Shown: one piece after another, positions 7,243-17,200 of the stretch
Position numbering within the stretch: the stretch's first letter is position 1
Layout: each line of letters starts with the position of its first letter
Source of the DNA: a virus
IMG/VR virus record: IMGVR_UViG_3300017917_005392
Span: 1-41,921 of that record
DNA length: 41,921 nucleotides
Reading direction: 5' to 3' (one strand)
Notes under the pieces: generated by a model
What the model was told of the DNA's origin: nothing
Seen by the model: the letters and a program-made list of their open reading frames with translations, nothing else
Database searches by the model: none
Made by a program: the position numbers and the translations under genes

Positions 7243-7273
7243 AAAAAGCTTCCATTCTTGGGGGCTTTTTTTT
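7243..7273. terminator. Intrinsic terminator, probably bidirectional
   Basis: AAAAAGC (7243-7249) pairs with GCTTTTT (7264-7270), extended inward by TTCC/GGGG to an 11-bp stem with loop ATTCTT, and a run of eight T. It serves the upstream tail gene. Read from the other strand the A run also gives a U tract for the reverse gene, whose stop codon (7272-7274) overlaps it. Confidence 0.8.
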
Positions 7274-7466: not shown

Positions 7467-7584
7467 AAAATATAATTTTTCTGTAAAATTAATGTCTCAT
7501 TTTTTATTTTCTTTTTATTTGTTTACCACTTTTTAGGTACATCTTAATAATAATTCATGGAGGCTTTTTTCGTATTTTTACAGC

Positions 7585-7714
7585 GCGCAACATTATTTCA
7601 ATTTAGGATTACTCCGCAAGGGCTGACTCATGATCAACCCTGCGGACCATGGTAAGACCATGGAACACTCGGAGTAATCTGGGATAATGTTGCGCACGCC
7701 GCAGGGCTTTTTTT
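7585..7714 (+). ncRNA. Structured leader RNA with alternative pairings, candidate attenuator
   Basis: Nested arms: 12-bp P1 (GCGCAACATTAT 7585-7596 with 7684-7695), 10-bp P2 (GATTACTCCG 7607-7616 with 7670-7679) and a 7-bp hairpin CCATGGT/ACCATGG (7647-7653, 7657-7663) with loop AAG. CCCTGCGG (7638-7645) can pair with CCGCAAGGG (7614-7622, one bulged A) or, perfectly, with CCGCAGGG (7699-7706), which is followed by C and seven T ending at the ATG of the next gene. The second pairing makes a terminator-like hairpin and breaks P1/P2 geometry, so the element looks like a two-state leader controlling the gene at 7715. No known riboswitch class recognised. Confidence 0.6.
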
Positions 7715-7972
7715 ATGGAGCAGCAACAACCTTTGTCATATGATATTAGTTATAGAATCAAGCAATTGATTCTCACGTGGTATGAGCCGGCATTAACTCC
7801 AGCTGATGCAAAGTATTTTCTCAACACAGAAGAAATTTTCACTCAGCTTCAGAAGATGTTCCCAAGCGAAGACTATAATGCCATTGATTTGGCTATATGG
7901 TTGGAAACATGGGGATTTAAATGCAGACCTACTGCCGCATTTAAATTTGAATGGTTGTTGAAAAAAAAGTAA
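7715..7972 (+). CDS. Small protein under the structured leader
   Basis: 85 aa, soluble, predicted helical, ending in a WLLKKK tail. The sequence DAIDLAIWLETWGFK-like stretch (residues 50-65, exact: YNAIDLAIWLETWGFKCRPT) suggests a small helical or winged-helix fold, but no family is certain. Its ATG abuts the U run of the leader RNA. The 3' end holds a run of eight A directly before the stop, 1 nt ahead of the next gene. Being downstream of the probable tail tube gene, the pair could be tail assembly chaperones; a regulatory role is equally open. Confidence 0.6.
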   Translation: MEQQQPLSYDISYRIKQLILTWYEPALTPADAKYFLNTEEIFTQLQKMFPSEDYNAIDLAIWLETWGFKCRPTAAFKFEWLLKKK

Positions 7973-9673: not shown

Positions 9674-10314
9674 AAACAAACGTAAAACAAGCCCTGGAAC
9701 AAAATAAGAATCAAATTGCTTTGTCAGCTGAAATTGCTGCTCAAGAAATCAATGACTGGCAAGCTATTCAAGCCTATATCACCAATAGGATTAGTAATAT
9801 CTCATTGACAGATGAGCAGAAAATAAAATTGAAGCGTTATGAGTTTGCCTACAATCAATTTGTTAGCGGCAAATATGCACAACATGAAGTTGTTGAAATG
9901 CTTCAAGAAAGCTTTAATATCTCCTATCCTCAGGCGTTGCGTGATGTCAAAGATTGTAGAGAAATTTTCACCACTACCATCAACATCAATAAGCTTTTTG
10001 AAATCAAAATTCAGCTTGAAATCAATAGAATAATGTTGAAGAAAGCTGAAGATTCCAATGATTTGAAAGCTTATGCACAGCTCGAAAAGAATAGACAAAA
10101 ATTCATTGCTATGCTTCCTGATGATGAAAGCAGCTTGGCAGATGAATTTATTCCACGTCAAAACATCCTGGAATATAACCCTGAATTGATTGGTGTGAAA
10201 ATTCAAGATATAAATGAAATCAGAGCCTTAGCTAAAGACTTGAAAAGAAAGTATGGTGGCGTGATTGACATTGCTGGTAAAGACATTACAGAAGCGGAGG
10301 TCCTAGATGAATAA
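9670..10314 (+). CDS. Probable small terminase subunit
   Basis: 214 aa, helical. It lies directly upstream of the large terminase with an 8-nt overlap, the standard terS place. Its N-terminal 90 residues contain a plausible DNA-binding helical region (EVVEMLQESFNISYPQALRDV), followed by a long helical oligomerisation region and a C-terminal tail with Asp/Glu that could contact TerL. The size is normal for terS. The call comes from position and architecture rather than sequence identity. Confidence 0.6.
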   Translation: MKTNVKQALEQNKNQIALSAEIAAQEINDWQAIQAYITNRISNISLTDEQKIKLKRYEFAYNQFVSGKYAQHEVVEMLQESFNISYPQALRDVKDCREIFTTTININKLFEIKIQLEINRIMLKKAEDSNDLKAYAQLEKNRQKFIAMLPDDESSLADEFIPRQNILEYNPELIGVKIQDINEIRALAKDLKRKYGGVIDIAGKDITEAEVLDE

Positions 10315-12823: not shown

Positions 12824-12904
12824 AGTCAAAAGTTTATACGACAAATATAGCCTTTGTTCTATACAATGGAATGGCTGAGGCTCTAAAGTTGTGTGTGGCT
12901 AAAT

Positions 12905-12956
12905 AGTTCTTTCACAAAGTCTCCCGAGTGCGAGAAAGAGCCTTTATGAAAGAACT
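12905..12956 (+). promoter_or_regulatory. Long hairpin enclosing the start codon of the next gene
   Basis: AGTTCTTTCA (12905-12914) pairs perfectly with TGAAAGAACT (12947-12956); after one C/A mismatch AAAG (12916-12919) pairs with CTTT (12942-12945). The ATG at 12946-12948 is inside the stem, so folded mRNA would hide the start codon. Confidence 0.5.
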
Positions 12957-13398
12957 CACCTTCAAAACACACAAACCAGGAGAAACGAATCTCAGCCATC
13001 ATTTTTATGTATTGAACAAAGGAAAGAATTGCGGTAAACCGTCACGTACAAACATTTGGCGTAACTGCTTCGTGGTAAGCTGCGAAGACCAGGACACATT
13101 AGAAAAATGCTTTTGGGTTTGCTTCTCACTGTGGCTTACTAATTCCTTTTATCCTTACCGATATGGCTCTGTAATCGAAACAATTCGAATCAATGATTTA
13201 AAGAAATGCATTGCAAAAGCTATGACCACAGGGTACGCTACAAGTCAGTTCGTTAATGCACTAAGCAAAATTGAAACTGCTGAAGCTGATTATAACAATA
13301 AGCTATCGAATCTCAAATCGCTTAAACAGGCTTTGGCAAAGACTTTCACCGCTGCAAATAGAAGCAAGCAATATCGGCATGGTGAGGAGCGCCCTTAA
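12946..13398 (+). CDS. DUF6943-like protein of Bacteroidota mobile elements
   Basis: 150 aa from ATG 12946; a GTG six codons upstream lies in the hairpin loop. The N-terminal half has the pattern HFYVLNKGKNCGKPSRTN followed by NCFVV and a Trp/Phe/Cys-rich stretch, which I associate with DUF6943 proteins of Bacteroidota plasmids and conjugative elements, with modest certainty. The C-terminal third is helical and Lys-rich. Function unknown. Its start codon is sequestered in a hairpin. It belongs to the accessory segment between the palindromic elements. Confidence 0.55.
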   Translation: MKELTFKTHKPGETNLSHHFYVLNKGKNCGKPSRTNIWRNCFVVSCEDQDTLEKCFWVCFSLWLTNSFYPYRYGSVIETIRINDLKKCIAKAMTTGYATSQFVNALSKIETAEADYNNKLSNLKSLKQALAKTFTAANRSKQYRHGEERP

Positions 13399-14095: not shown

Positions 14096-14169
14096 CCGCA
14101 AGTGTTCACTTGCGGGGACTTCTTTCTTTTCCTCCACCGGGAAAAGAAAGAAGCAAAGAAAAGCGGTGG
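14096..14169. repeat. REP-like double hairpin element
   Basis: Hairpin 1: CCGCAAGT (14096-14103) with ACTTGCGG (14108-14115), loop GTTC. Hairpin 2: CTTCTTTCTTTTCC (14119-14132) with GGAAAAGAAAGAAG (14140-14153), a perfect 14-bp stem with a 7-nt loop. A third pair, CCACCG (14134-14139) with CGGTGG (14164-14169), links the loop to the flank. From memory, similar CTTCTTTCTTTT palindromes are scattered through Bacteroidota chromosomes, suggesting host-derived DNA. There is no T run, so not a classical terminator. Confidence 0.6.
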
Positions 14170-14172
14170 CTA

Positions 14173-14208
14173 TGTCCTTTTTTAATGGTTGGCCAATGGT
14201 CAATTTTA
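14173..14208 (+). promoter_or_regulatory. TGTCCTTTT box before the tape measure gene
   Basis: Third copy of the box (14173-14181), 42 nt from the end of the box to the ATG at 14224. A 6-bp hairpin TTGGCC/GGTCAA with loop AAT follows at 14189-14203. The octamer 19 nt after the box, CAATTTTA, is a weak -7 candidate. It directly abuts the REP-like element. Confidence 0.4.
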
Positions 14209-14223
14209 TTGCAAAAGGCAACT

Positions 14224-17200
14224 ATGAGCGTTCGTACTGACGTGATAAATATGTCCATCAATATCAATGGGGACAAAGGAAAGGATGAATTAAATCAGCT
14301 TCAGAAGAAAGCTGCTCAGCTGAAGGCTGAAATGGCTGACCAAAACAGAAAAACTAAAGAAGGAAGGGAAAAATGGAAGGAGCTAAATGCTGAATATGCA
14401 GTAACAAATCAACGTATAGTTGATTTGAGAAAGGGTTTAGGTTTAGCTGCTTTGTCGCAAAAAGAACTTACCTCTGAGCTGAAAAGATTGCAGCAATTAA
14501 AAAACATTGCAACGCCTCAAACCAAAGAATTTTTTGAACTCCAAAATCAAATTGATGCAGTTTCTTCTAGGCTCAAAAATGTTCGGAATGGGACTTTTGG
14601 CTTCAAAGCTGCTCTTGGTAGCATTAAAGCTGAAGTGTTGCAATTTGGTGTTTTAGCCACATCTTATTTAGGCTTTGAATTCCTTACATCTCAGGTTAGC
14701 AATTTGATTGCTGCCCAAAAGAAAATGGCTGATCAAAATGCTGATATCAAGAAAACTACTGGCTTAACTAAACAGGAAGTTCAGCAGCTTAATGAAGAAT
14801 TGAAAACAATGGATACCAGAACTTCCAATTCAAAGCTTCGTGAGTTGGCAACTGATGCAGGTAAATTAGGTATTGAAGGTGTTGAAGGGATTAAAAAATT
14901 CGTTGAACAAGCTGATAAAATCAATGTAGCCCTGGGTGAAGATTTGGGAGATGGCGCCATCAATAAGTTGGCTAAAATTGCTCAAATATTCGATACTGAA
15001 ATGACCAACATTGCATCAGGGATTAATGCCGTTGGTCAAGCTAGTGCCGCTTCTGAAAGTTACCAGGTTGATTTTGCTTTCCGTATGGCGGGCACTTCAC
15101 AAACTGCTCGAATTGCAGCTGGTGATATCCTTGGATATGCAGCTGCTTTGGAAGTTAACGGACAACAAACGGAACTAGCTGCAACCGCTTTAAATACTTT
15201 CTTCCTTGATTTCATATCAAAATCTGATCAGTTTGGTAAAGCAGCTGGATTCGCTAAAGGTGAATTAGGCAAACTCATCAATGACAAGGGAGCAAATGCA
15301 GCATTCCTTCAATGGCTTGAGAACTTAAAAGCGCTCTCTCCTACTACTGAAGCTTTTATTGAAAAAATGCGCTCCCTGGGCATTGATGGCGCACGAGGCA
15401 GCAATGTTATGCTTGTGTTGAGTGAAAACATTGATTTGGTAAGAGAGCAACAAAAACTAGCCAATACTGAGATTGCAAAAGGCACCAGTATTATTGATGA
15501 ATATAATGAGAAGAATAACAATTTCGCTGCAACTGTTGATAAGGTTTCAAAGCAAATAAATTCGTTAGTTACTTCAGGAGCCATTAATGAAATGATCGTT
15601 GGAACGGTTAATGGTTTTAGTTCATTTTTATCAGTGCTTCCAAACATATTGACTTTCTTAAAAGATAATATTTCAAGCTTAGGCGTTTGGACCGCTGCTT
15701 TAATTGTCAATACCTCATGGGGCAAAAAATTCATTGAATGGATCAGCCTTTCCATCACAGGATTGAAAGGGCAAACAGCAGCTCAAATCTTATCTACAGC
15801 TGCTGCTAAAGCTGATATTATTGCAACCACTACTTTAGGCATGGTTAAGGCTTTACTAACTGGTAATTTGGCAAAGCTTCGAGCAGAATGGTTATTGCTC
15901 AATACCGTTATCGGGTCTAATCCGCTTAGCGCGGCACTTGTTTTAATCGGTGCTACAATTTTTGCTGTTCAATCTTTGACGCGTTCATCAAAAGAATTGA
16001 CTGAAATCCAGAAATATGAAAATGAGCTAAGAAAAAGAACGGTAGAATCAAGCGCGGCTCAGTTCACACAGCTGGTTACGCTTCGTACTGGGATTGAAAA
16101 TGTCAATTTATCGATGAACAAGCGGATCAAGGCTTCGCAAGATTTACAACGATTATTCCCTGAAATATTTGGCAATCTTAAAACTGAAGAAATTCTTGCT
16201 GGTAAAGTTGCCTCAGCTTATCAAAAGGCTGCTGAATCTATTCAAGCTAGTGCTGCATCAAGAGTATTCTCTGAACAAATGGGTGAGATTTCCGCTAAAA
16301 TGATTGATTTAGAGACATACATTGAGCAGTATCAGGCAAAGTCTAAAACTAAGATTGAGAAAAAAACTTCTTTCAATGGAGCCAATTTAGGTTTTGCGTT
16401 AGAAAATGACCTACAATTGCCTAAAGATGTTTATAACAGTATTGTTCAATATAATAAGTTATTAGCGGAACAATCTATTTTGTTGACTAAAATCGAAGAG
16501 GTTCAGACGGCAACGATTGGACCAAAGGTTCAATTAACATCAACCCAAACAGAAGAAGTTATCGGAAGCTTGCGTCAAAAAATCCAAGCCCTGGATGAAG
16601 ATTTGGACCGTATTTCCATCAAAGACAAAGCTGCCATCGCTGCCAATCGTGCCGAAAGAGCCAAACTGCAAAAAGAGCTTGATGCCATTGATGGAAAGAA
16701 AAACGGAGGTGATAAATCTGGACTTGTTGACCGAGTTAAAAGAGAGCTTGATGCATTGAAAATTGAAATGGACGCAGCCATTACAAACGGTTCAATGGAT
16801 GAAAAAACTGCTCAAAAATTTGCACTTCGACTGGAAAATATTGTTACCAGTTCAACAAAGAAGTTGATAAAAATGGCAGGTATTGAAGAGGCTAAATCAA
16901 CTCTTGCTCAATTGTTTTTTTTACCTGACCAAAAGAAAATTGATGCTCAATATGAAACATCACAACAAAGTATTTCCGACAACATCAATAAACAGCGTCA
17001 ACTAGTTCATCAAGATTACATAAATGAAATAATTGATAAATCAGAGCATTCATTAAGGCTCCAGCTGCTGGATGAACAGGAAATTATTGCTAGAGCTGCT
17101 TTGGCTGAAAAATTTAAAAACATATCCAAAAAAGCCGCTGATGATACTGAAAAATTAAAAACACAAGCGCTTGAATTAGGAATCAAAAATCGTGAAGATG

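Follow-up and report, generated by a model that had tools for sequence, protein, structure and literature searches.

The window, by which we mean the whole 41,921-nt stretch of DNA analyzed here, is a virus contig whose genes resemble those of Bacteroidota phages; its primase, protease, tape measure, and TerL match Duneviridae, Porphyromonas, Flavobacterium, and "Microcystis phage Mea-Yong924-1." Gene starts in this record lack Shine-Dalgarno sequences and often follow T runs (e.g., ATTTTT-ATG). Table 1 lists the features of a 130-nt leader (positions 7585 to 7714) and its surroundings. The operon that follows the leader carries packaging genes encoding a PLD-type nuclease, TerS, and TerL, and its first gene encodes a protein for which AlphaFold2 (mean pLDDT, 88) predicted a free-standing winged helix. 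Among viral folds, this protein best matched a VirE-type protein encoded by a Flavobacterium phage (E, 4.6e-3), and several primases were listed as well; matches to solved structures were weak. Upstream of the leader, a terminator is followed by a promoter, an order common to most relatives. We also observed that positions 7553 to 7570 and 7254 to 7271 form an 89% direct repeat, ATTC(A/T)TGG(A/G)GGCTTTTTT, the former being a second terminator-like tail directly upstream of the promoter.

Table 1. Features of the leader and flanking elements in the window
Feature	Sequence	Position	Strand	Remark
Terminator-like hairpin and T run	AAAAGCTTCC...GGGGGCTTTTTTTT	7245-7272	+	Ends upstream capsid/tail genes
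Bacteroidota -7 element	TATTTTTA	7573-7580	+	Last base off consensus, likewise in L079, L090, and L126
Predicted transcription start		7585	+	Outermost 5' base of P1; 5 nt after -7 element
P1, 12-bp core repeat	GCGCAACATTAT/ATAATGTTGCGC	7585-7596/7684-7695	+	15 bp (7585-7599/7681-7695) if two G-U pairs are counted
P1 5' arm	GCGCAACATTATTTC	7585-7599	+	P1 in 10/10 syntenic leaders
P2, 10-bp repeat	GATTACTCCG/CGGAGTAATC	7607-7616/7670-7679	+	Inner stem particular to the window leader
Segment A	CCGCAAGGG	7614-7622	+	Pairs with B, one bulged A; near-copy of C; A:B shuffle p, 0.002
Small upstream ORF	MINPADHGKTMEHSE, then stop	7630-7677	+	Spans B
Segment B	CCCTGCGG	7638-7645	+	Partner is A (local hairpin) or C (across P1)
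P3 hairpin, 7 bp	CCATGGTAAGACCATGG (CCATGGT-AAG-ACCATGG)	7647-7663	+
P1 3' arm (P1')	GGGATAATGTTGCGC	7681-7695	+
Segment C	CCGCAGGG	7699-7706	+	Pairs with B over 8 bp; 3' end lies 8 nt ahead of start codon; same placement in nine syntenic relatives
T7 run	T7	7708-7714	+	Abuts ATG 7715; not conserved in relatives
First gene of downstream operon		7715-7972	+	85-aa predicted winged-helix protein; HMM family of 13 distinct members

The leader has a minimum free energy of -58.9 kcal/mol, with a z score of about -8 (-8.7 against dinucleotide shuffles, or -7.7), and is the strongest fold among 130-nt segments on either strand of the 41.9-kb record; the minus strand of the region also folds strongly. 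A first-pass annotation had described here an RNA with two mutually exclusive folds, built from three inverted repeats (12, 10, and 7 bp) and from a segment, B, complementary to a second segment, C, that is followed by a C, seven Ts, and the ATG at 7715. All of these elements are present. B does have two exclusive uses; nonetheless, the three repeats are compatible with B:C, and the helix that B:C excludes is the previously unlisted A:B (one bulge). Kept together, P1 and B:C form a pseudoknot. The B:C match of the window gave a shuffle p of 0.008 on its own, and we regard it as meaningful because of the evidence in relatives rather than because of the match itself.

Relatives were gathered through TerL and the family of the downstream gene, and structure was not used in their selection. 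TerL alignments fetched more than 100 viral loci, and an HMM of the 7715 gene recovered 13 distinct members, about 19 to 30% identical to the window protein. One of them is Microcystis phage Mea-Yong924-1 (L019; MZ447863.1), whose TerL is 38% identical to that of the window and whose gene order matches it (protease, MCP, homologue of the 7715 gene, PLD nuclease, TerS, and TerL). This phage has a perfect Bacteroidota promoter, TATCTTTG, at positions 10184 to 10191; because of this promoter and its Bacteroidota-phage gene content, we suspect that the phage, annotated with Microcystis as host, may infect a Bacteroidota bacterium that accompanies the culture. Searches that did not pass through the gene family recovered no relatives of the leader: BLASTN against phages gave no match, exact patterns and end-repeat patterns found none in viral contigs, a 17-mer search of genome contigs returned chance matches only, a single-sequence covariance model found none in 395 genomes of the phylum of a Bacteroidota species, and protein scans with the neighbor genes and MCP found no close relatives. 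The sole apparent family-HMM match in the same 395-genome sample, L033, was rejected as an out-of-frame stretch of a methyltransferase-like gene.

Ten of the 13 distinct family members carry the layout P1/B/P1'/C/ATG before the gene, with almost no sequence in common. These ten syntenic leaders are those of the window, L019, L026, L058, L079, L090, L105 (near-copy, L132), L126, L129, and L142, and their full order is usually terminator, -7 element, P1, B, P1', C, and start codon. P1 crosses B:C as a pseudoknot in all ten, as judged by pairing and covariation; the gap between P1' and C is 0 to 3 nt, and across leaders C ends 2 to 23 nt before the start codon, in or near the ribosome footprint. 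A hairpin at the place of P3 also occurs in L058, L079, L090, L126, and L142. L070, L076, and L160 have no leader RNA, their upstream terminator running right up to the ATG. L027 (TerL 47% identical) lacks both leader and gene, and there the promoter TATATTTG is followed immediately by the next gene.

To evaluate the B:C pairing, we compared the best helix between the post-P1 tail and the loop with shuffles in nine of the ten leaders. As a result, each leader's own B:C scored p values of 0.0002 to 0.008 (Fisher, 5e-19), and none of 72 swaps, each combining the tail of one leader with the loop of another, reached the leader's own value. We further examined covariation in within-clade alignments built without structure. 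B:C showed double compensatory changes in three clades, with two in the L108 group (A7), three in L079/L126 (A8), and one in L105/L129 (A9), making six within-clade changes and zero broken pairs; partners slid out of register gave no comparable signal. According to the first-pass annotation, its reading would be undermined if the alternative arms of homologues lacked compensatory changes; such changes were found. The fold is real and conserved, and these sequence comparisons establish both its layout and the compensated B:C pairing.

In most members, B has a second possible partner in the upstream segment A, so that A:B and B:C compete. The A:B hairpin was supported over the ten leaders (Fisher, 2.8e-10) with two exceptions, L026, in which it is weak, and L090, in which it overlaps B only partially. 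Between L079 and L126, one B position changes along with both its A and C partners. In summed energies before any pseudoknot penalty, the pseudoknot state exceeds the A:B state by roughly 3 to 8 kcal/mol, which places the two states near balance. Moreover, 7/10 leaders contain an AUG-started ORF that spans B (3.5 expected; p, 0.03). Seven leaders (L019, L058, L079, L090, L105, L126, and L129) have an AUG positioned at the 5' edge of B, a post hoc statistic of 1.4e-7 if the leaders are independent, although the independent clades are fewer; the window AUG sits 8 nt upstream of B. The upstream ORF is only a lead, because the peptides are not conserved and in L126 the AUG at B reads AUG-UAA.

The Bacteroidota -7 consensus is TAHHTTTG, with the +1 position 5 nt after the element (PMC6847099). 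The predicted +1 is exactly the 5' base of P1 in seven of the ten leaders and is 2 nt off in the other three. At isolated non-Watson-Crick positions inside helices, G-U outnumbered A-C by 11 to 1, and by 7 to 0 in the syntenic set alone. This excess, together with the spacing to the promoter and to the start codon, indicates that the conserved structure is a plus-strand RNA and not a DNA cruciform.

Based on these comparisons, we propose, with a probability of about 60%, that positions 7585 to 7714 constitute a pseudoknot-forming, two-state translational leader of the winged-helix gene heading the packaging operon. Transcription from the -7 element would make the first base of P1 the first RNA nucleotide. 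In one state, B would pair with the upstream A, leaving C free beside the start codon and the start open; in the other, C would pair with B across P1 to form a pseudoknot in which P1 and B:C lie 0 to 3 nt apart. The B:C helix, placed inside the ribosome footprint, should lower initiation on the first gene; in Flavobacterium johnsoniae, structure in this part of the mRNA reduces initiation (PMC6847099). The conserved pairing of a segment proximal to the start codon points to translation rather than to termination. Some leader pseudoknots activate, as in IncI-type repZ; here we infer that B:C represses and that the leader acts in cis. The trigger would most likely be a phage protein, e.g., the winged-helix product itself, or a ribosome positioned on the upstream ORF covering B; no loop sequence is conserved that would point to a particular ligand or protein. 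Since the product is predicted to be a free-standing winged helix, autogenous binding is possible, and the AUG at the edge of B and the ORF spanning B suggest that a ribosome may open the structure.

The arrangement resembles several known leaders. The mRNA leader of gene 32 in the phages T4, T2, and RB69, which serves autogenous translational repression, likewise forms a pseudoknot ahead of the coding sequence for a nucleic-acid-binding protein and has diverged between relatives (PMC3014915); the corresponding protein here is a predicted winged helix. In T4, the pseudoknot is located 67 nt upstream and serves to recruit gp32, whereas in the window the pseudoknot strand abuts the start codon, P1 begins at +1, and B can pair with A instead. 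The repY-repZ leader pseudoknot of IncI/IncB plasmids, an activating one for which an antisense Inc RNA is known, is alike in that its loop pairs just upstream of the start and a small upstream ORF overlaps the structure.

C4 RNA (RF01695) of phages P1/P7 and CI of P4 are likewise leader-encoded on the same strand, with complementarity to sequence ahead of a start codon. C4 RNA is released by RNase P processing as a separate RNA of about 77 nt, and P4 CI is complementary to both an upstream and a downstream copy. Our leader might act in a similar manner, as an RNA closed by stem P1 that is processed free and whose B pairs with C in trans (and in cis) to shut off the downstream gene, for example in immunity. 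It would share with these RNAs the strand, the promoter, and the position upstream of its target; B is complementary to two copies, A upstream and C downstream, resembling P4 CI, and B:C involves the ribosome-binding region of the downstream gene, in line with C4, which is processed out of a longer transcript and then masks ribosome-binding sites with its loops (PMC5320573). Outside the syntenic set, the gene downstream of the L056 leader looks, from its sequence, like a phage antirepressor, and L056, L115, and L168 show further complementarity, 14 to 18 nt long, between the P1 3' arm and the start-codon region. Nevertheless, we consider an antisense role of this kind rather unlikely: the RF01695 covariance model had no match in the window, in the leader (E up to 5), or in eight relatives, the setting is a packaging operon of phages with Bacteroidota hosts and not an immunity region, and C occurs at no other plus-strand gene start in the window.

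Improbable as well is a static 5'-end structure, in which P1 at +1 and the pseudoknot would shield the late mRNA from decay without switching. The start of P1 at the predicted first nucleotide in 7/10 leaders fits this explanation; however, a stem alone would suffice for such a role, and the constant adjacency of C to the start codon and the competing A:B hairpin are left unexplained.

A transcription attenuator, which the first-pass annotation had suggested, would use B:C as an intrinsic terminator stem ending in U7 and A:B as the antiterminator. The leader shares with intrinsic-terminator attenuators the competition of three segments, with A:B and B:C mutually exclusive, and in the window C is indeed followed by a C and U7. 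The ten syntenic leaders keep C by the start codon, but U7 is found only in the window, with at most U5 in one other leader (L058); after C, the relatives read CTTATG, CCATGG, TACTTGCC, and so on. T-rich context before ATG is common in the record, which makes the T7 run ahead of ATG 7715 nothing unusual. Moreover, the terminator loop would be 53 nt long and would hold the stable P1 3' arm. Since the U7 run is not conserved, and a GC stem with a conserved U run was not found, termination at this site is a poor prospect. Altogether, in its workings the leader resembles known pseudoknot and antisense leaders, yet it is neither a C4 RNA nor an attenuator; we do not file it under either because the covariance model gave no match and the U run is not conserved.

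The leader position and the alternative folds had also suggested a riboswitch-type regulator. A small-molecule riboswitch is very improbable, since no conserved unpaired or loop nucleotides were found across members, and Rfam gave no match to riboswitches or any other class in the window, the leader (E up to 5), or eight relatives, which bears out the earlier impression that the RNA belongs to no known class. By eye, we also dropped a retron (reverse transcriptase match absent among the proteins scanned), an attC site (stem without extrahelical bases), and a known ribozyme (no Rfam match). A near-palindromic sequence that lies upstream of the terminase genes and whose minus strand also folds strongly would fit a DNA-level element (cruciform, packaging or recombination site, or insertion ends), but such an element can be practically dismissed given G-U at 11 versus A-C at 1 where strand-symmetric pairing would make A-C as frequent as G-T, the fixed spacing to promoter and start codon, and an end-pattern search that found no copies.

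Layouts similar to the proposed translational leader, with P1 at or near +1, were found by a scan before other genes, namely in L108/L112/L122/L127/L128 after lysis genes, with covariation, and in L056, L115, L168, and L085. A generic scan for promoter, P1, C, and ATG was not specific on its own (38 forward versus 30 reverse-complement hits; 38 v 30 v 10), whereas holding P1 at the predicted +1 separated the sets (offset 4, 8/22 forward versus 0/19 control hits). Because the scan without the +1 restriction gives many chance hits, we regard the layouts in other operons as only probable. In L056 (9047 to 9212), L115 (8627 to 8855), and L168 (5690 to 5875), a second copy of the P1 5' arm runs over the start codon (in L168, GCTAACAGATCAT followed by GCTAACAGATCATG), so that P1' could also pair with the start codon itself.

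Other sites in the window are also of note. The tape-measure leader (14119 to 14172) has a 13-bp hairpin, CTTCTTTCTTTTC/GAAAAGAAAGAAG, in a region with a z score of -6.5; its loop CCACCG is complementary to CGGTGG (14164 to 14169), two bases before ATG 14172, which gives this phage another pairing between a loop and a start-codon region. BLASTN found no relatives of this leader in phages or plasmids. A 22-codon ORF at 14172 to 14240 (MSFFNGWPMVNFIAKGNYERSY, then stop) overlaps the likely tape-measure start, ATG 14224, which suggests translational coupling. At 12860 to 13010, a strong hairpin (z, -4.6) lies over a plus-strand ORF start and faces a minus-strand gene.

More tentatively, the translational leader may represent a phage leader family defined by topology only, with a stem at +1, a loop-to-start-codon pseudoknot, and a competing upstream copy. 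Such a family might head several operons (packaging, post-lysis, and next to an antirepressor-like gene) and diverge completely in sequence since strand exchange suffices, and its members could possibly act in trans as RNA immunity or be read by ribosomes on the AUG at the B edge (7/10). A shape conserved without sequence explains why family-based searches missed the leader. To our knowledge, few leader pseudoknots controlling phage translation have been documented. A 2010 review considered T4 gene 32 to be possibly the sole viral pseudoknot used in translational autoregulation (PMC3014915). In several distantly related Bacteroidota viruses, the leader described here probably serves as an on/off switch, not listed before, for the first protein of the operon, and every B:C pair offers a ready-made two-mutation compensatory test. 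Bacteroidota do without Shine-Dalgarno sequences, and the leader bears on the question of how these bacteria and their phages gate translation in this setting.
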